Made by a program: the position numbers and the translations under genes. Shown here piece by piece: positions 6,147-54,699 of a stretch of 64,000 nucleotides of DNA. Origin of the DNA: Thiorhodovibrio winogradskyi (lineage in GTDB: Bacteria > Pseudomonadota > Gammaproteobacteria > Chromatiales > Chromatiaceae). Positions within the stretch are counted from its first letter, which is position 1. Every line of letters starts with the position of its first letter. Below the pieces are notes generated by a model. That model ran no database searches, was not told the DNA's origin, and was given only the letters and a program-made list of their open reading frames with translations. Location: positions 310,001 to 374,000 of the forward strand of contig NZ_CP121472.1 in the NCBI RefSeq assembly GCF_036208045.1, in the 5' to 3' direction.

Positions 6147-7837
6147 GGCAGCAGCCCAAGTTGCTGGGCCTGCAACAGCAGATCGCGCGCCAGGGGCGCG
6201 GCGACGGTCGAACCATAGCCGCCCTGTTCCACCAGCACGGCGATGGCCAGGGTCTGCTCGGGCGCGCGCCTGTCCGCCGGCGCGAAGCCGACAAACCAGC
6301 TGTGGGGCGCGCCATCGGCGTTCTGCGCCGTGCCAGTCTTACCGGCAATGGCAAGCTCCGCCATGGCGATGCCGCGCGCCGTGCCCTCGGTGACCACCCG
6401 ACGCATCATCCCTTGTAACTGGCGTGCGTGCGTCGCTGTCATGAGTCGCGCCAGGGCCTCGGGCTGATCGCTTGCGACCAGACGCGGCTTGACCGCCAGG
6501 CCATCGTTGGCGATGGCGGCGGTGATCAGCGCCAGATGCGCCGGGCTCATCAGCACCCGCCCCTGGCCGATGGATGCCTGGGCGAGACCATATTGATCGG
6601 TTTTGGCAATGCGCGGCGCCTCGCCGGTGACCATGGTCAGGCTGCCATGGGCGCTGCGATGCAGGGGGATGCGCCGGCCGAACAGAAAATCATTCAGGGT
6701 CGCGGCAAAGCGCTCATGGCCGAGCTGTACGCCGAGCTTGGCGAAGAACACATTGCAGGACTCCGCCAGTGCGCGCGACAAGGATAGGCTGCCGTGCCCC
6801 CGCCAGGTCATGCCGCTGCGTCGCGCCGAATAGTAGTCGTGATCGCGAATCAGCGGATAGCGCGCCGAGGTGGTAAAGCCTTCCGGCGCGCACACCAAGG
6901 GTCCGGTCTGGCCCGCCGCCAGTGCCTCGGCCGCCAGCACCAGCTTGAAGGTGGAACCGGGTGGATAGCGCCCCTGCAGGGCGCGGTTCAACAGCCGTGC
7001 CTCGGGGTCGCCGCGCTGGAACAGGCCGGCCGAGAGCTGGTTGGGATCGAAGGCCGGCGCGCTGGCCAGCACCCGCAGGGCGCCATCGCCGGGACGCAGC
7101 ATCACCACCGCGCCAGCGCGCCCATCGAGCGCCGCGAAGGCCTGGCGCTGCAACTCGGCGTCGAGCGTCAACACCAGATCCTGACCGCGCGGCTCGCGCT
7201 GGGTCACCACCCGCTGGCCAAGATCGCGCCAGGCGCGCAAATCCGCCGGAGTGCTGCCATTGAGGTGGGCATTGGCCGAACCCTCGAGCCCGGCGGCGCC
7301 AAAGGTCGGATCCTGATAGCCAATCACATGAGCAAAGGCCGGACCATCGGGGTAGAGACGCTGGACCCGGCCATCGCGCTCCTCGCTGTAGGCCAGTACC
7401 TGCCCGCGATGATCGGCAATACGCCCGCGCGCGATGCGATGCGCCGGGTTGAACTGGCGCCTGTCGTAAGTCTGCATGAAGGCGATGAAGTCCGGGCGGG
7501 TCATGCCCATCAACTGCCAGCTTGCCTGGTAGGCCAGCACGCCACCAAAAGTACCCCCCAGCACCAGCAAAACCAATCCGCCGCCGACTAGGGATTTGGG
7601 CTTGGGCAGCGCCTTCAGCTTGGCCGCCGCGCGCAGATCGAACAGCCGCTTGAGCAGATACAGCAGATTGATGAAAAACAACCCATGCAGGCCGAGCTGC
7701 AGCGTCGGCCAGGCGGGAGAGTCAATCAGGGTGTTGAAGGTGGCGAGGGGATTCAAGGTACGAGGCTCGGGAGACCCAAGCAGGGAATGCCGGGCGGTTG
7801 GCGTACCCAGCCCGGCTGGACCAGTCCATTCAACCAA
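6143..7837 (-). CDS. Class B penicillin-binding protein (transpeptidase)
   Basis: It cross-links peptidoglycan peptides, presumably with the SEDS protein encoded immediately downstream. Two hydrophobic segments occur near residues 45-60 and 85-105, so the anchor is longer than the single helix usual in PBP2/PBP3. The catalytic serine sits in PPGSTFK (about residue 295), followed by the SCN motif (ESCNVFF) and KTGT (AGKTGTAQN, about residue 499). All three active-site motifs are intact. The first 30 residues are poorly conserved in appearance, and a later start is possible. Confidence 0.88.
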   Translation of the reverse strand: MVEWTGPAGLGTPTARHSLLGSPEPRTLNPLATFNTLIDSPAWPTLQLGLHGLFFINLLYLLKRLFDLRAAAKLKALPKPKSLVGGGLVLLVLGGTFGGVLAYQASWQLMGMTRPDFIAFMQTYDRRQFNPAHRIARGRIADHRGQVLAYSEERDGRVQRLYPDGPAFAHVIGYQDPTFGAAGLEGSANAHLNGSTPADLRAWRDLGQRVVTQREPRGQDLVLTLDAELQRQAFAALDGRAGAVVMLRPGDGALRVLASAPAFDPNQLSAGLFQRGDPEARLLNRALQGRYPPGSTFKLVLAAEALAAGQTGPLVCAPEGFTTSARYPLIRDHDYYSARRSGMTWRGHGSLSLSRALAESCNVFFAKLGVQLGHERFAATLNDFLFGRRIPLHRSAHGSLTMVTGEAPRIAKTDQYGLAQASIGQGRVLMSPAHLALITAAIANDGLAVKPRLVASDQPEALARLMTATHARQLQGMMRRVVTEGTARGIAMAELAIAGKTGTAQNADGAPHSWFVGFAPADRRAPEQTLAIAVLVEQGGYGSTVAAPLARDLLLQAQQLGLLP

Positions 7838-45063: not shown

Positions 45064-45402
45064 TCAGTAGCCGCCTTTGCGCATGACCGCGGGCAGGCCC
45101 GCGATCTTGGTGCCCTGTTTGGTGGGGGCCAGGGGGAAAAGCTTGTAGACGTCCTTGCTGGTGGGTTTGGAGCCCCATTTTTTGCCCATGTCCTTCAGCA
45201 GGACGCGTTCCATCGGCTGGTTTTGGTTGTTATTGATGTATTCGTCACGCAGGTAGTTGATAATGTCCCAGTGTTGCTCAGTCAGCTCGATGCCTTCGAT
45301 GTCGGCGAGCTTGCGCGCGACATCTTCGTTCCAATCGGTGTAATTGACCAGAAAACCGTTCTCGGTTGTCTCGATGCTGGTGCCATTGACCTCGATCGCC
45401 AT
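45064..45402 (-). CDS. DsrC/TusE-family protein without cysteines (RspA-like)
   Basis: The start at 45402 aligns with true DsrC proteins (MAIEVNGTSIETTENGFLVN). The WNEDVA, EHWD-like QHWDIINYLRDEY and KLFPLAPTKQG segments match DsrC. The C-terminus reads KIAGLPAVMRKGGY, so both sulfur-carrying cysteines of DsrC (C98 and C109 in the copy at 51724) are absent; the whole protein has none. It cannot act as a persulfide carrier. Such proteins have been termed RspA and proposed to be regulatory. It is the last gene of a minus-strand cluster divergent from dsrA. Confidence 0.88.
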   Translation of the reverse strand: MAIEVNGTSIETTENGFLVNYTDWNEDVARKLADIEGIELTEQHWDIINYLRDEYINNNQNQPMERVLLKDMGKKWGSKPTSKDVYKLFPLAPTKQGTKIAGLPAVMRKGGY

Positions 45403-45496: not shown

Positions 45497-46240
45497 CTAG
45501 CCTGAACCCTTGGTCGGGCCGACGGCCTCAATGCCCTTATGCGGGATGAACAGGCCGCAGCCAAGCTCGCGGTGCGGGCCCAAGCCTTGTTGCTGCAGGC
45601 GCAGGGATTCTTCCAGACCGAGGTCAGCCAGCATCAGGCCGCGGGTTGGCAACCAACCGCCCGAGTAACGCACTTTCACTGATTTGCCGCACAGGGCTTT
45701 GCGGATTTTAATATCCAATTCGGCCAGGGCCGCGGCCGCCCAGTCGAGAAAGTCGCTCTCGCTGTCGTGCGTCGAGTCGCGCCCCGGCTTGGGCTGGGGG
45801 TGGCAGACATAACGCGAAAAGAGCGTGGTTTCGCGGCTGAGCAGGCGTTCCTTGGCGGACTCAAGATGCAGCACATGGCCGGCGATGTCGAAATCCCGAT
45901 GCTCGAGCGCGGCACGCAAGTCGGCAACGCGTTTTTTGGGCACCCGGATCCCAAGTTTGGTGCGGCGCGACAGAATCAGTGGCTGATCGGCATCAGCCTC
46001 GGGTCGTTGCCAGCCGTTTTGCGAGCCGGCGACATGAACGCTGTGAATGCCGCAGCAGTCCTCCTCTCCGATCCAGGGCGCGGCGCCAAGCAGGGCATGC
46101 GCCAGGGCCTCGGCATGATCGACTGGTAGCGCGCGGCATTTCAGGGAGAACAGCACATCGACCACCTCGTCGCGGATGGATGGTGCCGGTTCGGTTTGGT
46201 CTTCCTGCCAATAGCTGTGGGTCATGAGGGTGTCAGGCAC
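45497..46240 (-). CDS. Solitary Cas6/Cmx6-like RAMP protein
   Basis: The protein resembles the Cas6 variant of type I-MYXAN systems, an endoribonuclease that cuts CRISPR RNA. Family-like parts are VVDVLFSLKCRALPVDHAEA, GIHSVHVAG, LILSRRTKLGIRVPK, SVKVRYSGGWLP and the C-terminal glycine-rich loop GLGPHRELGCGLFIPHKG. The His in PVDHAEAL is a possible catalytic residue. No CRISPR repeats, Cas1, Cas2 or effector genes occur in the window. It is encoded 16 bp after the helical 249-residue protein gene and 94 bp before the cysteine-free DsrC gene. RNA cleavage here is inference from family resemblance. Confidence 0.7.
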   Translation of the reverse strand: MPDTLMTHSYWQEDQTEPAPSIRDEVVDVLFSLKCRALPVDHAEALAHALLGAAPWIGEEDCCGIHSVHVAGSQNGWQRPEADADQPLILSRRTKLGIRVPKKRVADLRAALEHRDFDIAGHVLHLESAKERLLSRETTLFSRYVCHPQPKPGRDSTHDSESDFLDWAAAALAELDIKIRKALCGKSVKVRYSGGWLPTRGLMLADLGLEESLRLQQQGLGPHRELGCGLFIPHKGIEAVGPTKGSG

Positions 46241-46256: not shown

Positions 46257-47006
46257 TCAAGAAGTCTTGGAACCTTCGTTCAGCGGTAGTTCGGATTGCA
46301 ACGCCTCGCGGTCGAACCACCAGTCATCCTGCACCAGTACATCGACGATGTTGCGCAATCTGACCAGGAATTTGTCCGGTTCGCGTAACTCCAGTCGGTC
46401 GCGCCAGGCGTCGAAGGCATCCTGATTGTCAACCTGGCTGTGACGGCGCGCCACTTCGCCAAGCTGCTGGGACGCAAAGAACATCAGGTTCTCGCGCTGG
46501 CTGCCCTGGGCGCGCACATCGGCGAGGAACAGCGCCGTGGTGGCCGCCACAGCCGCGCCGTCGGCGTCGTCAGGGGTGTCTTCGATGACATGGCTCAGAA
46601 GTTCCACCGACAATTCCGGATCCATTGGATAGGTCACGGCCAGCCAGATGCCCTGGCCGAGGGCTGACAGAGACTGCGGTTGTTCGGCGCGGAAAAGCAC
46701 ATCGCAGCAATCGGCGGCGGACTCGAAATCCCGTGCCTGGATCAGGTTGTCGAGTGCCTCGCGCGCCATGGGCCAGGCCTCCGCGCCGCGCTCGAGGCTG
46801 ACCAGGGTGCGCGCGATCTGCAATTGGAGTTCGGCACCCTGCCTGGCATTGGCGGCGGTTTTAACTTTGATGCGCTGGAAGTCGCGGTATTGCTCCCGCA
46901 AGGTACCAAGATGGGTTTCGAGCGCGGCCTCCTCGGCCAAACGAGGGCGAACGGAGTCGGCGGCGGTATCGGCCAGGTGCGACCGGGTGATGTCGTGGAA
47001 ATTCAT
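46257..47006 (-). CDS. Helical hypothetical protein of the dsr-divergent cluster
   Basis: I do not recognise the family. The start at 47006 (MNFHDITRSHLADTAADSVR) is preferred; an upstream start would add 26 Pro/Ala/Cys-rich residues. The 249 residues are almost wholly alpha-helical, with TPR-like periodicity in the middle (QLQIARTLVSLERGAEAWPM, AREALDNLIQARDFESAADC). It has no signal peptide or membrane segment. It lies 16 bp upstream of the Cas6-like gene, so the two products may act together; a helical scaffold or partner is possible. Confidence 0.6.
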   Translation of the reverse strand: MNFHDITRSHLADTAADSVRPRLAEEAALETHLGTLREQYRDFQRIKVKTAANARQGAELQLQIARTLVSLERGAEAWPMAREALDNLIQARDFESAADCCDVLFRAEQPQSLSALGQGIWLAVTYPMDPELSVELLSHVIEDTPDDADGAAVAATTALFLADVRAQGSQRENLMFFASQQLGEVARRHSQVDNQDAFDAWRDRLELREPDKFLVRLRNIVDVLVQDDWWFDREALQSELPLNEGSKTS

Positions 47007-47099: not shown

Positions 47100-47291
47100 C
47101 TAGCGCACCAAACCGCTGAAGGCGGCTTCGAGCCGGTCTTCCCAATTGTCCGGGGTGTCCGGGAAGGGCGGCTTGACGTCCATGCGGAAGAAACGCTCAC
47201 CGTCACGGGCAATGGCCTGGATGATGGGGACCAGGTCCTCGAAGCTTTCCAATTCCTGGTTGGAAACGAGAATTTCGCTGAGTTTCAACAT
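47100..47291 (-). CDS. Small 63-residue hypothetical protein
   Basis: The ATG at 47291 follows a purine-rich CCCCCTATG-type context with a weak ribosome-binding site. The product (MLKLSEILVSNQELESFEDL at its start, EDRLEAAFSGLVR at its end) is acidic and soluble, with no cysteine. It is the first gene of the minus-strand cluster, 93 bp before the helical protein gene. Codon use is normal for the genome, supporting it as real. No family was recognised. Confidence 0.5.
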   Translation of the reverse strand: MLKLSEILVSNQELESFEDLVPIIQAIARDGERFFRMDVKPPFPDTPDNWEDRLEAAFSGLVR

Positions 47292-47588: not shown

Positions 47589-47847
47589 TCTCGTCTCGGG
47601 TTGTCTGGCGCCCATCCTAGTGGGTTGAATCACTGGAGAAAATCGCAGGCTGTCAACTATCTCGAAAGGGATAGTCGGGGGGATGCCAGCCCCTCCTAAT
47701 GGTGGAATAGCCCCAGCGTTTTGGTCGGACTATAGTGGCGTCTGAAAGGGATTGGCCGGCAGGATGACTGACCATCTCAAGGTCATATCCGACGGAATGT
47801 TCACCAGCCCATGCGTCCACCATGAGGCCATGATCGGTAGCCCCATG

Positions 47848-47883
47848 TACGCCAGTCAGTACGCCAGTCAGTACGCCAGTCAG
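47848..47883 (+). repeat. 12-bp tandem repeat upstream of dsrA
   Basis: GTACGCCAGTCA is repeated three times without interruption. It ends about 50 bp before the dsrA start codon, within the predicted leader. Confidence 0.85.
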
Positions 47884-47932: not shown

Positions 47933-49195
47933 ATGGCAATCGAGAAGCACCACACCCCGATGCTCGACCAGCTCGAGACCGGGCCTTGGCCGAGCTTTAT
48001 TTCTGGCATCAAGCGGCTGCGCGACGAGCACCCCGAAGAGCGCATCAACTCGATGACCAACGACCTGCTCGGGCAGCTAGAGCACTCTTATGAAACCCGC
48101 AAGGGCTACTGGAAGGGTGGCACCGTCTCTGTTTTCGGCTACGGCGGTGGCATCATCCCGCGTTTCTCGGAGGTTGGGGCTGCCTTCCCCAAGTCCAAGG
48201 AATTCCATACCCTGCGCGTGCAGCCGCCGGCAGGCAATCACTACTCAACCAAAATGCTGCGCCAGCTTGCCGATAGCTGGGAAAAGCATGGTTCCGGTCT
48301 GGTGACCTTCCACGGTCAGACTGGCAATATCATGTTTATTGGCGCCGATACACCGGCCACCCAGCATTTCTTTGATGAAATCAACGAGTACGGCTGGGAT
48401 CTCGGGGGTGCTGGACCCTGCGTGCGCACCGCCATGTCGTGCGTCGGCGCGGCCCGCTGCGAGATGTCTTGCACCAATGAACTGAAAGCCCACCGCGCCT
48501 TGGTCAATAACTTCGTCGACGACGTCCATCGTCCGGCGTTGCCCTACAAGTTCAAATTCAAGGTCTCGGGCTGTCCCAATGACTGCCAGAACGCCATTGA
48601 GCGATCCGACTTCGCGGTGCTCGGTACCTGGCGCGATGACATGAAGGTCGATCAGGACGAGGTCAAGAAATACGTCAAGACCAAGGGGCGTCAGTACATC
48701 ATCGATAACGTCATTACGCGCTGTCCCACCAATGCCCTGTCGCTGAATGACGACGATTCGCTCGCGGTCAACAATCGCGACTGCGTACGCTGCATGCACT
48801 GCCTGAATGTCATGCCCAAGGCGCTACACCCCGGCGATGACAAGGGTGTGACCATCCTCATCGGCGGCAAGCGTACCCTCAAGATCGGCGATCTCATGGG
48901 TACTGTCCTGGTGCCCTTCAAAAAGCTCGAGACCGAGGAAGATTACGAGAGCATGGTCGAGTTGGCCGAGACCATCATTGATTTTTGGGCCGAGAATGGT
49001 CTGGAGCACGAGCGTTGCGGTGAAATGATCGAGCGCATCGGCTTGGCGAACTTCCTCGACGGTATCGGCATCGAGGCCGATCCAAACATGCTCGCGCACC
49101 CGCGCCAGAGTTCCTACATCCGACTGGATGGCTGGGATGACGCGGCCGAGCAGTGGTTCGAGCGTCAATCCGAGCAGCGCGCGGCGGCCGGTTGA
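47933..49195 (+). CDS. dsrA: Reverse dissimilatory sulfite reductase, alpha subunit
   Basis: With DsrB it oxidises DsrC-bound persulfide sulfur to sulfite in the cytoplasm. Siroheme/4Fe-4S cysteines are seen in SCVGAARCEMSCTNELKAHR and SGCPNDCQNAI, and the inserted ferredoxin domain has CPTNALSL and CVRCMHCLNVMPKAL. The 420-residue length fits oxidative-type DsrA. It is the first gene of dsrABEFHCMKLJOPNRS, with dsrB 125 bp downstream. Operon order and companions (dsrEFH, dsrL) mark it as the oxidative type. Confidence 0.96.
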   Translation: MAIEKHHTPMLDQLETGPWPSFISGIKRLRDEHPEERINSMTNDLLGQLEHSYETRKGYWKGGTVSVFGYGGGIIPRFSEVGAAFPKSKEFHTLRVQPPAGNHYSTKMLRQLADSWEKHGSGLVTFHGQTGNIMFIGADTPATQHFFDEINEYGWDLGGAGPCVRTAMSCVGAARCEMSCTNELKAHRALVNNFVDDVHRPALPYKFKFKVSGCPNDCQNAIERSDFAVLGTWRDDMKVDQDEVKKYVKTKGRQYIIDNVITRCPTNALSLNDDDSLAVNNRDCVRCMHCLNVMPKALHPGDDKGVTILIGGKRTLKIGDLMGTVLVPFKKLETEEDYESMVELAETIIDFWAENGLEHERCGEMIERIGLANFLDGIGIEADPNMLAHPRQSSYIRLDGWDDAAEQWFERQSEQRAAAG

Positions 49196-49320
49196 ATCCA
49201 ATCCCCTTGTAATGCCGGCCGAAACCCCGCGGGCCCATCCGGTCCGCTGGGGGGCGCCGGCGCGAAGAATCCCAGCTGCCCGGTGACGGGCGGCGGAGCC
49301 AACGAACTGGAGGAAAGTCG

Positions 49321-50397
49321 ATGGCTGCAAAAGACATGCGTGAGCCGATAGAGTCCGGCTGTCCCGATCCCTGGCAGTACATGCATCCAACGATGCGCAA
49401 GAATTTCGGCCAGTGGAAGTACCATGAGCATCCCCGTCCCGGCGTGCTGCGTCACGTTGCTTATAGTGGCGATGAAATCTGGACCGTCAAGGCTGGTACC
49501 CAGCGTATTCTGGATGTTTTCACCCTACGCAAGCTGTGCGATATTGGCGATGAGTTCGCCGACGGCTTCGTGCATTTCACCCTGCGCTCCAACATTGAGT
49601 ACATGGTGACCGAGGAGGCCCGAGTCCAGCCGCTGATCAACGCGCTCGAGGAGGCTGGCTTCGTGGTCGGTGGGACTCAAAACACCGTCGCCATGATCTC
49701 GCACACCCAGGGTTGGTTGCACTGCGACATTCCGGGCACGGATGCCTCGGGCGTGGTCAAGTCCATGATGGACGAACTCATCGACGATTTCCGCAACGCC
49801 ACCATGCCCAACCGGGTGCATATCACCACCTCCTGCTGCCAGATCAACTGCGGTGGGCAAGGCGATATCGCCATCAATATTCAGCACACCAAGCCGCCCA
49901 AGATCAACCACGATCTGGTCGCCAACGTGTGCGAGCGCCCATCAGTCGTGGCGCGCTGTCCGGTCGCGGCCATCCGCCCGGCCATGGTCAACGGCAAGCC
50001 CTCGCTGGAAGTCGACGAGCGCAAGTGCATCTGCTGCGGCGCCTGCTATCCGCCTTGCCCGCCCATGCAGATCAACGATGCCGAGCACTCCAAGCTGGCC
50101 ATCTGGGTGGGTGGTAATCACTCCAACGCGCGCGGCAAGCCAACCTTCCAAAAGCTGGTGGCCGCTGGAATTCCCAACAACCCGCCGCGCTGGCCCGAGG
50201 CCACCGCCATCGTCAAGCGCATTCTCAAAGCCTACAAGGAAGGCGCGCGTGACTGGGAGCGGGTGAACGAGTGGATCGAGCGCATTGGTTGGCCGCGCTT
50301 CTTCGAGGAAGTCGAACTGCCCTTCACCAAGTATCACATCGATACCTGGCGTGGTGCGCGGGCCAGCTTTAACTCATCGTCCTACATCCGCTTCTGA
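49321..50397 (+). CDS. dsrB: Reverse dissimilatory sulfite reductase, beta subunit
   Basis: This is the partner of DsrA in the alpha2-beta2 enzyme; the beta subunit carries the catalytic siroheme. HITTSCCQINCGGQGDIAIN and VCERPSVVARCPVAAI contain the cluster cysteines, and CICCGACYPPCPPM holds the ferredoxin-domain cluster. The start at 49321 follows GGAGGAAA, a strong ribosome-binding site. The length of 358 residues is standard. Confidence 0.96.
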   Translation: MAAKDMREPIESGCPDPWQYMHPTMRKNFGQWKYHEHPRPGVLRHVAYSGDEIWTVKAGTQRILDVFTLRKLCDIGDEFADGFVHFTLRSNIEYMVTEEARVQPLINALEEAGFVVGGTQNTVAMISHTQGWLHCDIPGTDASGVVKSMMDELIDDFRNATMPNRVHITTSCCQINCGGQGDIAINIQHTKPPKINHDLVANVCERPSVVARCPVAAIRPAMVNGKPSLEVDERKCICCGACYPPCPPMQINDAEHSKLAIWVGGNHSNARGKPTFQKLVAAGIPNNPPRWPEATAIVKRILKAYKEGARDWERVNEWIERIGWPRFFEEVELPFTKYHIDTWRGARASFNSSSYIRF

Positions 50398-50494: not shown

Positions 50495-50887
50495 ATGAAG
50501 TTTGCCATTCAGATCAACGAAGGACCCTACCAGCACCAGGCGTCGGACTCCGCGTACTTTTTCACCAAGGCGGCGCTGGAGAAGGGGCATGAAGTCTTTC
50601 GTGTGTTCTTTTATCATGACGGGGTTGACAACGCGAGCCGGCTAACCACGCCGCCGCAGGATGACCGCAACGTTGTCGAGCGCTGGGCCGCACTGGCGGA
50701 GCAGTACGAGCTTGACATGGTGGTCTGCGTCGCCGCGGCCCAACGCCGCGGCATGGTGGACGAGGGCGAGGCCAAGCGCAACGGCAAGGATGCGACCAAC
50801 ATCCATCCGCGCTTTCGGATTTCCGGTCTGGGGCAACTGGTCGAGGCGGCGATTCAGGCCGACCGTCTGGTTGTGTTTGGCGACTGA
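50495..50887 (+). CDS. dsrE: Sulfurtransferase subunit DsrE
   Basis: DsrE forms a hexameric complex with DsrF and DsrH that passes sulfur to DsrC. The active-site cysteine is Cys78 in LDMVVCVAAAQRRG, the same residue number as in Allochromatium vinosum DsrE. The length is 130 residues. A GGCGAGG site precedes the ATG, and dsrF follows after 60 bp. Confidence 0.94.
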   Translation: MKFAIQINEGPYQHQASDSAYFFTKAALEKGHEVFRVFFYHDGVDNASRLTTPPQDDRNVVERWAALAEQYELDMVVCVAAAQRRGMVDEGEAKRNGKDATNIHPRFRISGLGQLVEAAIQADRLVVFGD

Positions 50888-50947
50888 TGTCGCGCCATTC
50901 ACACCACAGCCAGTCACAGCGTTGCGCCAGTCACTAGGAGCAGGAAA

Positions 50948-51358
50948 ATGTCCGCGACAGTCAAAAAGTTTCTGTATCTCAATCGCAAGGCGCCCTATGG
51001 CACCATCTATGCTTGGGAGTCGCTCGAAGTCGTCCTGATCGGCGCGGCTTTCGATCAAGACGTCAGTCTCGCCTTTGTTGACGACGGGGTCTACCAGTTG
51101 ACCAAGGGCCAGGAGACGGCCGGCATCGGCATGAAGAACTTCTCGCCGACCTACGCCGCCCTTGGCGACTATGAGGTCACGAAAATCTTTGTCGAGCAGG
51201 AATCCCTCCAGGAGCGCGGTCTGTCGCTTGACGATCTGCAGCACCTGGTGTGGGAAGACGAGGACGAGGACTATGCCGAGAAAGACTCCATCGCGCTGGT
51301 CTCGCGTGCCGAGATGGCCGCGCTGATGGATGAATCCGACGTTGTCTTCAGCTTTTAA
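50948..51358 (+). CDS. dsrF: Sulfurtransferase complex subunit DsrF
   Basis: This is the structural subunit of DsrEFH. The protein shows the DsrE/F fold start KKFLYLNRKAPYGTIYAWES and contains no cysteine, as expected for DsrF. The C-terminus is acidic (WEDEDEDYAEKDS). An AGGAGC site precedes the start, and dsrH begins 11 bp after its stop. Confidence 0.94.
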   Translation: MSATVKKFLYLNRKAPYGTIYAWESLEVVLIGAAFDQDVSLAFVDDGVYQLTKGQETAGIGMKNFSPTYAALGDYEVTKIFVEQESLQERGLSLDDLQHLVWEDEDEDYAEKDSIALVSRAEMAALMDESDVVFSF

Positions 51359-51369
51359 GGGAGCCCCGT

Positions 51370-51678
51370 ATGAGCAAGCTACACACCGTCAACAAGTCAC
51401 CCTTCGAGAAATCCTCGCTGGAGTCCTGTTTGGCGCATGCGAGCGACGGCGCCGCCGTGCTGCTGTTCGAGGATGGCATTTATGGTGGGTTGCGGGGGAC
51501 CGCAGCGGCCGAAACTGTCGAGCGCGCGCTCGCATCGGTTAAAGTGTATGTGCTGGGCGAGGATCTCAAGGCTCGTGGCTTTGGTGAGGATCGCCTGCTT
51601 AATGGAATCAGCGTCGTGGACTACGGCGGCTTCGTGGATCTCGCCGCGCAAGCCGATGCCGTCCAGGCCTGGTTGTAG
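51370..51678 (+). CDS. dsrH: Sulfurtransferase complex subunit DsrH
   Basis: This third subunit of DsrEFH has Cys20 in KSSLESCLAHASDG, matching the conserved DsrH cysteine position. The TusB-like pattern continues with AAVLLFEDGIYG and VLGEDLKARG. The length is 102 residues. It is tightly coupled to dsrF and precedes dsrC by 45 bp. Confidence 0.94.
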   Translation: MSKLHTVNKSPFEKSSLESCLAHASDGAAVLLFEDGIYGGLRGTAAAETVERALASVKVYVLGEDLKARGFGEDRLLNGISVVDYGGFVDLAAQADAVQAWL

Positions 51679-51680
51679 TT

Positions 51681-51707
51681 TTGACTTAATTCAACTGATT
51701 TTAACGA
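51681..51707 (+). promoter_or_regulatory. Weak promoter candidate in front of dsrC
   Basis: TTGACT (51681-51686) and TAACGA (51702-51707) are spaced by only 15 bp in an AT-rich 45-bp gap. A separate dsrC promoter has been reported in A. vinosum from memory; here the match is poor and the leader would be very short. Confidence 0.25.
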
Positions 51708-51723
51708 ACCTCAGGAGACGACT

Positions 51724-52056
51724 ATGCCAATCGAAGTCAATGGCAAGAGCTTTGAGACTGACGAAGAAGGCTACCTGGCCAATATCAACGACTGGGAGCC
51801 TGGCGTTGCCGAAGTCATGTCCAAGGAGGACGATCTGGAGTTGACCGACGAGCATTGGGACATCATCAACTTCCTGCGTGAGTACTACGAGGAATACCAG
51901 ATTGCCCCAGCCGTGCGCGTTTTGACCAAGGCCGTTGGTAAAAAAATGGGCAAGGACAAGGGCAATAGCAAGTACCTCTATGGTCTTTTCCCTTACGGTC
52001 CAGCCAAACAGGCGTGCCGTTACGCGGGTCTGCCCAAGCCAACCGGCTGCGTCTAA
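51724..52056 (+). CDS. dsrC: Sulfur carrier protein DsrC
   Basis: DsrC presents the sulfur substrate to DsrAB and links it to DsrMKJOP. The flexible C-terminal arm ends CRYAGLPKPTGCV, with both conserved cysteines (C98 and penultimate C109) 11 residues apart. The core has EHWDIINFLREYYEEYQIAP. The length is 110 residues. A CAGGAGAC ribosome-binding site precedes the ATG. A cysteine-free paralogue lies at 45064-45402. Confidence 0.96.
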   Translation: MPIEVNGKSFETDEEGYLANINDWEPGVAEVMSKEDDLELTDEHWDIINFLREYYEEYQIAPAVRVLTKAVGKKMGKDKGNSKYLYGLFPYGPAKQACRYAGLPKPTGCV

Positions 52057-52215
52057 ACCAGCGCAACCGCGCGCTCTCCGGTTCCCGGACCTTTGTTCCC
52101 CGCTTTCCCGAAGAGGGGGAATGCATGCCCGGCCCGGAGGGCCTCGCCGCACCGGTTTTTGTCGGCTGTGGCGTTCCGACTGAAGATTGAGGCTGAAGAC
52201 TGAGGTCGCGTGATT

Positions 52216-52947
52216 ATGTCCTTTATCTCGGATATCTACGCTTATCTGTTCTATTTCGCGACACTGGTGTTGCTTGGCGGTCTGACGCTGAAGATTCTGC
52301 AATACGCGCGCACCCCGGCACCTTTGAAGATCCCGACCACGCCAGCCCCGACCACCTCTGTCGGTGTGGCCCTGCGCATGACGCGCGAGGTAGTGCTGTT
52401 CGAGAGCCTGTTTCGCGGCAATAAATGGACCTGGATCTTTAGCTGGATGTTCCACTTTGGATTGTTGTTGGTGACCCTGCGCCACTTGCGCTACTTCATC
52501 GACCCGGTGCCAGTGCCCATTCAGATGATCCAGCCCTTCGGCATCTACGGCGGCATGGCCATGATTGTTGGCCTGGCCGGGCTCTGGGCGCGACGTTTCT
52601 TCGTCGACCGGGTGCGCTACATTTCCTCGCGCTCCGATCATCTGATCCTCGCGCTATTGGTCGCCATCGGTCTGACTGGTCTGATAATGCGCTTTGTGGT
52701 GCATACGGACATCATCAGGGTCAAGGAATTTTTCGCTGGTCTTTATCGGTTCGAGGTCGTCATCCTGCCGGCCGATCCAGTTCTGCTGCTGCATCTGCTG
52801 CTGGTGGCGCTGCTGATGATTATTTTTCCTTACAGCAAGCTCTTGCATGCGCCTGGACTCTTCTTTAGCCCATCGCGCAATCAAGTCGATAACCCGCGCG
52901 AGCGGCGCCACATCGCACCATGGGCGAAGCGTCTCGAGCAAGAGTAG
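52216..52947 (+). CDS. dsrM: DsrM, NarI-like cytochrome b subunit of DsrMKJOP
   Basis: This inner-membrane diheme cytochrome b exchanges electrons with the quinone pool. Five to six hydrophobic segments are visible, with His residues in WMFHFGLLL, TLRHLRYF and LLHLLLVALL able to bind heme. The ATG at 52216 (MSFISDIYAYLFYFATLVLL) is preferred over a GTG two codons earlier. The length of 243 residues is normal. The 160-bp gap after dsrC contains a TTCCCC/GGGGGAA stem that could be an RNA processing or attenuation site. Confidence 0.92.
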   Translation: MSFISDIYAYLFYFATLVLLGGLTLKILQYARTPAPLKIPTTPAPTTSVGVALRMTREVVLFESLFRGNKWTWIFSWMFHFGLLLVTLRHLRYFIDPVPVPIQMIQPFGIYGGMAMIVGLAGLWARRFFVDRVRYISSRSDHLILALLVAIGLTGLIMRFVVHTDIIRVKEFFAGLYRFEVVILPADPVLLLHLLLVALLMIIFPYSKLLHAPGLFFSPSRNQVDNPRERRHIAPWAKRLEQE

Positions 52948-53056
52948 CGAGTTACGGAACCGCGATCGAGCGGCCACACCGGCTTGCCGGGCATGGCCAA
53001 GATGAAAGCCGCAGTATTCCGGGCCTGTGTTGAAAAGGTGCAGAAGACGGCACTGA

Positions 53057-53115
53057 GACATTGGGTTTGAGAACATTGAGTTTGCGAAACTGGATTTGAG
53101 AGATGGGGTTGATAC
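53057..53115 (+). repeat. Degenerate 15-bp repeats in the dsrM-dsrK spacer
   Basis: Four consecutive degenerate units are seen: ACATTGGGTTTGAGA, ACATTGAGTTTGCGA, AACTGGATTTGAGAG and ATGGGGTTGATAC. They run right up to the dsrK start codon, replacing a normal ribosome-binding site. Confidence 0.6.
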
Positions 53116-54699
53116 ATGGCTAAGGCAAATTTCCAAGTCCCCGAGCTCAAGGAGTACGCCGAGATCCCGGAGATTGAACCGGGCATCATGGCTCACTCCA
53201 AGCCATTCAAGTCCAAACCGGAGTTTCAGGAAGCGCTGGGGTTTCCCGGCGAGTTGGTCGAGGACTGGCAGAAAAAAGCCATCGATAAAATGGGCGACCT
53301 GCTCGGGCGCTATCGCTCACTGCGGGTGTATCTGGATTCCTGCGTCAAGTGCGGTGCTTGTACCGACAAGTGCCACTATTATCTGGGCACCCATGATCCG
53401 AAAAACATGCCGGTTGGCCGTCAGGATCTGCTGCGCAAGGTCTATCGGCGCCATTTCACCCTGGCCGGGCGATTTTTTCCGAACCTGGTCGGAGCGACTG
53501 ATCTGACCGAGGAGGTTCTCGGCGACTGGTACAACTATTTTCATCAGTGTTCCCAGTGCCGACGCTGCTCGGTGTTCTGCCCCTACGGCATCGACACGGC
53601 TGAAATTTCCATGGCCGCGCGCGAGATCATGGACCACATCGGTGTCGGGCAGAAATACTGCAACGAGATCATTGGCAAGGTCTACAAGATCGGCAACAAC
53701 TTGGGTCTCCCCGGCCCGGCGCTGATCGACACCCTGGAAGGTTTGGAAGAGGATGTGTTTGACGAAACCGGGGTCGAGGTCAAGTACCCCATCGACCAGG
53801 AAGGCGCCGAGATTCTGCTGGTTACCCCCTCGGCGGATTTCTTCGCCGAGCCCCATGTCGATGGCCTGATTGGTTACGGCAAGGTGTTCCACGAGGCTGG
53901 CGTCAGCTGGACCATGAGCACCTATGCCTCCGAGGCCGCCAACTTCGGCATGTTCATCGGTTCCTACGACAACATGCGTCGGGTGGCCCTGCGTATCCGC
54001 GAGGCGGCTATCAAGCTGGGTGTCAAGCGGATTGTCTTTGGCGAGTGCGGTCATGCCTGGCGGGTGGCTTACAGTTTCTTGAACACCTTGGCCGGCCCCT
54101 GGGATTTTCTCGATCAGCGCTACCCGATCCCGCAGCATATCTGCGAGTTCACCCACGATCTCATCCAGCAAGGCAAGCTAAAATTCGACAAGTCGCGAAA
54201 TGACGACAAGGTACTGACCTATCACGACTCCTGCAATGTCGCGCGTGCCTCGCGCATGGGGGATAAACCCGGTGGCCAGTTCGATATTCCGCGCGCCATC
54301 ATCCGCGAGGTCTGCAACCATTACTACGACATGGATGAGGAAACAATCCGTGATCGAACCTTCTGTTGCGGCGGCGGCGGCGGACTGCTGACCGACGATC
54401 TGATGGAGGTGCGCGTGAAGGGGGCGCAGCCTCGCATCGAGGCGCTGAACCATGTCATCCAAGAAAAGGGTGTGACCCACATGGCGGCGATTTGTGCCAT
54501 CTGTAAGAGTCAGTTCACCAAGGTGCTGCCTTACTACGGCATGGACATGGATCAGATCGTCAGCGTCCATCAACTCGTCTCCAACGCTTTGATTCTGACT
54601 GGCCAAGAGAGCGATGAGCCAGACGATGAACCAGCCGACAAGCGGGAAGATAAACTGGCCAGCGAGCCTGCCAGTCAGTCGACCAGCGCGGCAGCCTGA
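53116..54699 (+). CDS. dsrK: DsrK, HdrD-like iron-sulfur catalytic subunit
   Basis: This is the cytoplasmic subunit of DsrMKJOP thought to reduce or oxidise the DsrC trisulfide/disulfide. Two ferredoxin-type cluster motifs are present (CVKCGACTDKCHYY and CSQCRRCSVFCPYG), followed by CCG-domain cysteines in FCCGGGGGL and AAICAICKSQF, typical of heterodisulfide reductases. A C-terminal Asp/Glu/Ser/Ala-rich tail of about 30 residues follows the core. The gene begins after a 168-bp spacer with small repeats. Confidence 0.94.
   Translation: MAKANFQVPELKEYAEIPEIEPGIMAHSKPFKSKPEFQEALGFPGELVEDWQKKAIDKMGDLLGRYRSLRVYLDSCVKCGACTDKCHYYLGTHDPKNMPVGRQDLLRKVYRRHFTLAGRFFPNLVGATDLTEEVLGDWYNYFHQCSQCRRCSVFCPYGIDTAEISMAAREIMDHIGVGQKYCNEIIGKVYKIGNNLGLPGPALIDTLEGLEEDVFDETGVEVKYPIDQEGAEILLVTPSADFFAEPHVDGLIGYGKVFHEAGVSWTMSTYASEAANFGMFIGSYDNMRRVALRIREAAIKLGVKRIVFGECGHAWRVAYSFLNTLAGPWDFLDQRYPIPQHICEFTHDLIQQGKLKFDKSRNDDKVLTYHDSCNVARASRMGDKPGGQFDIPRAIIREVCNHYYDMDEETIRDRTFCCGGGGGLLTDDLMEVRVKGAQPRIEALNHVIQEKGVTHMAAICAICKSQFTKVLPYYGMDMDQIVSVHQLVSNALILTGQESDEPDDEPADKREDKLASEPASQSTSAAA

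Follow-up and report, generated by a model that had tools for sequence, protein, structure and literature searches.

The window, that is, the whole 64-kb stretch of DNA analysed here, belongs to a genome of one contig (5,478,625 bases) and carries four genes on its minus strand, in the order p63 (47100..47291; 63 aa, conserved), p250 (46257..47006; 249 aa, 16 nt ahead of the listed cas6 frame), cas6 (45497..46240; an open frame listed with 247 aa) and rspA (45064..45402; 112 aa), with dsrA divergent on the plus strand. Because the four genes share their orientation and are separated by gaps of 93, 16 and 94 nt, they probably form one operon, of which p63 would be the first gene in this genome. 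A sequence-only reading of the same DNA had described a compact operon with a cysteine-free DsrC paralogue, divergent from dsrA; the order and orientation are confirmed, and the operon itself is deduced from orientation and spacing. The product of rspA, located 94 nt downstream of cas6, is a DsrC/TusE paralogue (PF04358, E 2.5e-35) whose encoded sequence contains no cysteine; the PF04358/TIGR03342 match combined with the missing DsrC cysteines places it among RspA-like members of the DsrC/TusE/DsvC group, and we assume for it the name RspA, a label given in the sequence-only reading. The longer open reading frames containing p63 and p250 (the latter extending to 47084) matched nothing in Pfam or NCBIfam, and searches of solved structures by sequence returned nothing convincing for either protein. 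The structural model of p250 (pLDDT 90.6) is predicted to be all-helical and had no structural match at E 0.001, its weak matches being to helical repeat proteins only.

The divergent cluster on the plus strand comprises dsrA (47933..49195; TIGR02064, 662.6 bits), dsrB (49321..50397; TIGR02066, 560.1 bits), dsrE, dsrF, dsrH and dsrC (50495..52056; TIGR03012, TIGR03010, TIGR03011 and TIGR03342, all above cut-off), followed by a dsrM-like gene and dsrK (52216..54699). DsrK is matched above the cut-off of NF045796, and the dsrM-like gene scores 172 bits against the DsrM model, under the cut-off of 300. A perfect 12-bp tandem repeat of 3.1 copies (47847-47883) is found shortly upstream of dsrA.

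The listed cas6 frame is probably translated from the ATG at 46225, yielding 242 aa, because many relatives begin with M-(F/Y)-W, a methionine by a conserved tryptophan. The product scores 193.9 bits against PF09559 (E 3.6e-57; curated cut-off 26.7) and narrowly passes TIGR02807, the Cas6/Cmx6 model (103.3 bits, cut-off 98.85); PADLOC Cas6 models match as well, and all 42 members of our alignment A3 match TIGR02807 at E 0.001 or better. Among solved structures searched by sequence with E values up to 1, the one match was Cas6 of a type I-B CAST, to which the family profile aligns with E 1.3e-21 (PDB 8fcj chain B). The AlphaFold2 model, built with 42 sequences, has a pLDDT of 86.6, and we read its order of strands and helices as two ferredoxin-like RAMP halves. 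Foldseek likewise ranked 8fcj_B first (E 1.4e-16, TM 0.65/0.74), followed by other Cas6 structures and Thermus Cse3. With profile scores above cut-off, two predicted ferredoxin-like RAMP domains and a C-terminal glycine-rich loop, the protein is a Cas6 by its sequence and modelled fold. The Cas6/Cmx6-like blocks and the glycine-rich loop noticed in the sequence-only reading are thus corroborated by PF09559, TIGR02807 and the conserved loop glycines, and the two checks it had proposed, profile searches and structure prediction, came out in favour of Cas6: both profiles pass, the predicted fold consists of two ferredoxin-like halves, and Foldseek leads to the same family.

The dsr-linked Cas6 shares with its CAST counterpart the sequence, the predicted fold and the glycine-rich C-terminal loop, but differs in having no adjoining array or Cascade genes, in its dsr linkage, in an SQNGWxRP insertion that is missing from the 8fcj alignment and in an HKGI motif close to the C-terminus. 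With type I-MYXAN Cas6/Cmx6 it has in common the match to TIGR02807 above cut-off, but the cas operon is wanting: no cas gene was seen among the dsr-linked neighbours, which are p63, p250, rspA and dsrA. The equivalog name of TIGR02807 is therefore misleading for this protein, and annotating the dsr-linked gene as a type I-MYXAN Cas6 misleads CRISPR surveys. The window protein had no match in plasmids or phages, and neither alignment A3 nor a CRISPR-linked paralogue had one in viral contigs; a viral or plasmid origin of cas6 was accordingly rejected.

The established function of Cas6 is to cut crRNA in CRISPR systems. A search of the window for exact 20-mers in at least four spaced copies revealed no CRISPR array, and whole-genome searches placed both the sole cas1 match and the sole PF03787 RAMP match outside it, in agreement with the earlier observation that the 64 kb hold neither CRISPR repeats nor other cas genes; PF09559 matches once in the genome. 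The cas1 match lies 1.15 Mb away in a type I-C operon that includes Cas5d and adjoins an array (L052), and in type I-C systems crRNA is processed by Cas5d, not Cas6. The weak PF03787 match, at 4.375 Mb, corresponds to a type IV-A locus (L273:8870-13859) with csf1, csf2, a csf5-like Cas6 gene and a DinG-like csf4, the matches to csf5 and csf4 being under NCBIfam cut-offs and clear in PADLOC. The Cas6-like type IV-A enzyme Csf5 is likewise a RAMP-type crRNA nuclease, but it represents another family and is encoded together with a DinG-like helicase in a csf locus. Because the I-C system has Cas5d and the IV-A system a csf5-like gene, the two CRISPR systems found own their nucleases. The adjoining CRISPR locus using this protein, which the sequence-only reading had considered as an objection, was thus not encountered, both loci found carrying other processing enzymes, and the dsr-linked Cas6 is very probably not part of a CRISPR system.

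Phylogenetic analysis (FastTree, with long branches flagged and five CRISPR-linked rows from one family of bacteria as the outgroup) grouped 166 of 168 dsr-linked rows in one branch (support 98), the five CRISPR-linked paralogues falling on another (support 100). The 166 unique rows are called dsr-linked as a set, linkage not being confirmed row by row. The other two rows, from G802 and G775, are dsr-linked, lack the insertion and stand apart in the tree. Loci L246 and L247 show cas6 in this insertion-free form adjoining dsrA. In the dsr branch, R93, R99 and Q216 are present in 166/166 rows, H42 in 165 and H66 in 163, and the glycine-rich loop is similarly constant (G221 and G229 in 166/166, G227 in 165, G219 in 164). 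The SQNGWxRP insertion, with G76 and W77 in all 166 rows, is nearly confined to this branch and appears in the model as a low-confidence loop beside the H66 segment. It is missing from the five CRISPR-linked paralogues, in which the H66 position is occupied by H, Q or L, so that H66 is at most a candidate catalytic residue. These paralogues (L034/L249, L044, L243, L244, L245) come from the same family of bacteria and belong to the same Pfam family, but those of L034 and L044 share 27-28% identity with the window protein; an array accompanies the paralogue in L243-L245 and L249. The 36-nt repeats in the arrays of these four loci are much alike and may represent a cognate substrate to compare with. 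Against two congeners, the dN/dS of cas6 is 0.26 and 0.19, compared with 0.06-0.08 for p63 and p250, 0.05-0.08 for rspA and 0.02 for dsrA. The gene is under purifying selection, the least strict of this set, and its evolution faster than that of its neighbours counts against the reading preferred below.

The best 80 of 540 relatives, obtained from a scan of genome contigs and partly repeating the same species, included Thiocapsa, Allochromatium, Thiocystis, Thiohalocapsa and Marichromatium, as well as Sedimenticola, Thiohalobacter, Thiogranum and an Acidiferrobacteraceae bin. In this set, dsrA is divergent in 53 of the 56 loci with at least 4 kb of upstream sequence, and among the 70 loci with sufficient sequence we found p63 within 1.8 kb in 66, p250 in 61 and rspA in 57. 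The Thiohalobacter and Thiogranum loci are without p250, and rspA does not adjoin cas6 in the three Allochromatium loci and some others; that of A. palmeri (L130) carries p63-p250-cas6 next to dsrA.

Across the order, PF09559 was detected in 188 of 210 genomes, mostly in single copy, dsrA over cut-off in 180 and a cas1 match in 131. PF09559 was present in 121 of the 131 genomes with a cas1 match and in 67 of the 79 without one, many of the genomes being drafts in hundreds of contigs, where an absent cas1 match is no proof that CRISPR is absent. Of the 22 genomes without PF09559, sixteen, among them six from a single genus (G202-G207), also lacked any dsrA match better than 1e-17. Three of the remaining six, which have dsrA, were viewed: the contig ends inside the operon in G066 and G119, and G031, with no p63 or cas6 in the 2.9 kb upstream of dsrA, is an apparent case of cas6 loss. 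Conversely, eight genomes have PF09559 with a dsrA match absent or weaker than 1e-30 (G016, G017, G023, G034, G042, G046, G187, G196). A contig end lies at most 1.3 kb from p63 in seven of them, and in G196 there is neither p63 nor dsrA in the 9 kb upstream of cas6.

Among the matches listed for 114 genomes of the order with both genes, dsrA and cas6 are 1.9-4.0 kb apart in 102 and on separate contigs in 12. Because both contigs are long, G010 and G195 represent true relocations; in G195, p63 and p250 remained with dsrA. In G196 and G197 (L107, L111), which share their genus with G195, cas6 is likewise away from dsr. The linkage is hence not strict, since cas6 has left dsr in the Thiosymbion group (L043, L107, L111). 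In genera g36 and g48, the best-scoring dsrA stands alone and a second dsrA adjoins the cas6 operon: L056, L057 and L058 are dsrAB copies without that operon, which is found in the other dsr cluster of these genomes.

A sample of 369 genomes over the class, with a dsrA threshold of E<1e-30, contained both genes in 111 genomes, dsrA only in 8, cas6 only in 7 and neither in 243, so that cas6 accompanies dsr in 111 of 119 dsrA-bearing genomes; since the genomes are related, this co-occurrence is not independent and a P value overstates it. Where both genes occur, they are less than 6 kb apart in 82 genomes, far apart on one contig in two (G318, G532) and on separate contigs in 27. The ten exceptions inspected (all seven with cas6 only and three of the eight with dsrA only) are all near contig ends. 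The cas6-only loci have p63 or rspA nearby in six of seven cases and a contig end within 2.4 kb on the dsrA side in each, and a contig break explains most of them. L225 in G506 appears rearranged, because the 2.3 kb upstream of p63 contain rspA and no dsrA. In the three dsrA-only loci, the contig ends 0.1-0.7 kb upstream of dsrA or just past p63. Five genomes of 1.0-1.1 Mb (G248, G350, G462, G494, G557) carry dsrA and cas6 and yielded no match to cas1 or PF03787; in the three of them that were viewed, p63-cas6-rspA adjoins dsrA, with p250 undetected. Linkage is thus conserved in relatives and kept where cas1 is unmatched, on a scale broader than the sequence-only reading, which had proposed a survey against dsr genes and CRISPR, could see.

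Beyond the class, the picture is different. The phylum sample included 49 dsrA-bearing genomes, and cas6 was found in the two belonging to the class (G802, G775) and in 0 of the 47 of other classes. That those 47 manage without cas6 counts against the reading that we prefer below. Twenty stretches from 19 of the 47 genomes were viewed. In four of the 19 genomes (L253-L256), with the gene order dsrABEFHCMK, p63 is near dsrA and cas6 is absent; p63 occurs in none of the remaining 16 stretches, and dsrEFH in one (L261). A TauD/TfdA-like frame is found beside p63 and dsrA in L253 (11716-12651) and L255 (7445-8425), of which the L253 copy was tested and belongs to the TauD/TfdA family (PF02668). 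In L255, a DUF6967 protein of 71 aa (6981-7196) follows p63. Where the gap between p63 and dsrA is long, a dioxygenase-like frame, judged by eye, is present in eight of nine loci viewed. From this pattern of presence and absence, p63 and the TauD-like gene may have adjoined dsr first, with cas6 and rspA (and p250) joining later within the class.

We also looked for an RNA on which Cas6 could act. Two gaps fold better than their mononucleotide shuffles: dsrA-dsrB, with a median z of -2.25, and dsrC-dsrM, with one of -2.07 (60 loci each). In the window they contain strong hairpins that are common in relatives (49196-49320 and 52057-52215, respectively), the second of which may be an attenuator after dsrC. 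As Cas6 targets, these intercistronic hairpins were rejected: the structured dsrA-dsrB gap occurs in L253, L255 and L256 and the structured dsrC-dsrM gap in L254, L255 and L256, all without cas6, and neither is seen in L237-L239, three small genomes that keep cas6. Folding showed no structure in the dsrA and p63 leaders or between cas6 and rspA. No RNA substrate for Cas6 was therefore found among the gaps and leaders of the dsr and cas6 operons that were folded, which counts against the reading preferred below.

The region upstream of dsrA contains a conserved block (47657..47708) with the palindrome TATCYC-N4-GRGATA (47658-47673). The block, 51 bp long and with its end 93-334 nt before dsrA, is present in 88 of 94 intergenic regions (the same species partly repeated), and the palindrome lies 0.2-0.3 kb upstream of dsrA in all nine genomes searched, being the only exact copy in six of them. 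Judged from its sequence, this element is likely a dsr-specific DNA operator and probably not a Cas6 target; it was rejected as a Cas6 hairpin since the arms hardly change, the loop differs between elements (56 unique elements contain 28 loops) and the wobbles are without strand bias (10 vs 14 cells). Weak matches (E 0.0007 to 0.1) place the palindrome also at dsrA where cas6 is elsewhere or was not found (L060, L070, L234, L236). It was not found at L055, L232 and L248, which have dsrA and no cas6 near, nor at the relocated operon L069. An 8-mer is common to the palindrome elements and CRISPR repeats, in a minority of the elements.

The Cas6 of this locus looks like a CRISPR-independent, stably kept accessory of dsr. 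Because cas6 adjoins dsr in most dsr-bearing relatives examined, including very small genomes in which cas1 was not found, it probably has a non-immune, RNA-related job in sulfur metabolism, and the suggestion of the sequence-only reading that the protein was domesticated and tied to sulfur metabolism is strongly supported, as regards a CRISPR-independent dsr role, by co-occurrence, linkage and retention without a cas1 match. The processing of dsr mRNA or of a small RNA, given as an example in that reading, would be one such job; the hairpins examined do not track cas6, and the conserved palindrome resembles DNA rather than RNA. RNA binding or cleavage appears the likeliest activity, and our preferred reading, to which we assign a probability of roughly 0.55, is that the dsr-linked Cas6 binds and cleaves RNA in a manner coupled to dsr. 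We infer that early in this sulfur-oxidizing class a Cas6 of the PF09559 type was recruited into the dsr region and was then retained as a CRISPR-independent part of that neighbourhood. This double ferredoxin-like RAMP protein would bind, and probably cut, a transcript relevant to reverse-Dsr sulfur oxidation, and RspA, a DsrC relative unable to carry sulfur on cysteine, would act, in most lineages together with p63 and the helical p250, as sensor and adaptors.

An RNA-binding regulator without cleavage, in which Cas6 would hold a transcript, for instance a dsr-regulon leader or small RNA, with RspA, p63 and p250 modulating access, is consistent with the conserved glycine-rich loop and basic positions, with the variability of H66 among CRISPR-linked paralogues and with the nearly branch-specific insertion, modelled as a low-confidence loop, beside the H66 segment. 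However, the constancy of H42 and H66 in the dsr branch is greater than a pure binder seemingly needs, and we regard this alternative as unlikely, at about one chance in four. The RAMP fold could also have been turned to protein work, as a partner of RspA/DsrC or in Dsr assembly, with no RNA involved. The usual company of dsr and of the DsrC paralogue (57 of 70 loci among the best 80 of 540 relatives) and an operon in which no structured RNA was found would fit such a role, but the glycine-rich loop, arginines and histidines of Cas6 are conserved, and cas6 stays where p250 or p63 is missing, so that no fixed complex is evident; this possibility is rather improbable. Finally, an ordinary Cas6 maturing crRNAs in trans for arrays at other sites of the genome was rejected as the main explanation and is very improbable: the protein passes both Cas6 cut-offs, and most type III systems apparently rely on a Cas6 encoded at another locus (from passages of PMC12669027), but the gene is kept in 67 of 79 order genomes without a cas1 match and in the five 1.0-1.1 Mb genomes with neither a cas1 nor a PF03787 match, the two CRISPR systems found in its own genome have other nucleases, and G113, G120, G159 and G183 possess an array-linked PF09559 paralogue besides the dsr-linked copy.

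For Allochromatium vinosum, passages of PMC3368242 describe the dsr genes as a single transcription unit in which dsrC and dsrS have additional promoters. During growth on pyrite, the log2 change varied along the operon, from -4.7 for dsrA to -1.2 for dsrC (passages of PMC11267869). Such uneven change leaves room for a step at the RNA level, and promoters explain it too. No Alvin_124x tag appears in the main text of PMC11267869. The CRISPR exaptations treated in the consulted parts of PMC8730458 and PMC12669027 share with our case the re-use of CRISPR components outside immunity, but the passages on Cas6 describe no exaptation of a solitary Cas6, and the word sulfur is absent from both main texts. 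No report of a cas6-dsr linkage was found among the matches listed in the literature searched, which included parts of PMC5944118, PMC3575380, PMC10952691, PMC5728499, PMC7540712 and PMC8889020 and covered subscription papers in part.

The re-use of Cas6 described here is real, broadly conserved and unreported in the literature searched. We tentatively propose, at slightly less than even odds, that Cas6, RspA, p63 and p250 constitute a previously undescribed core RNA-processing module in sulfur oxidizers of this class, through which the fate of particular transcripts would be coupled to sulfur status. A nuclease of CRISPR origin would here have become a housekeeping ribonuclease of metabolism with a dedicated substrate, kept even where the dsr-bearing genomes of the class sample are smallest. 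The linkage brings to light two conserved uncharacterised proteins, p63 and p250, and the reading is directly testable in Allochromatium. If true, it would be, to our knowledge, a rare example of one Cas protein becoming domesticated for core energy metabolism, and the globally important pathway of sulfur oxidation would gain an RNA-level step in its control.
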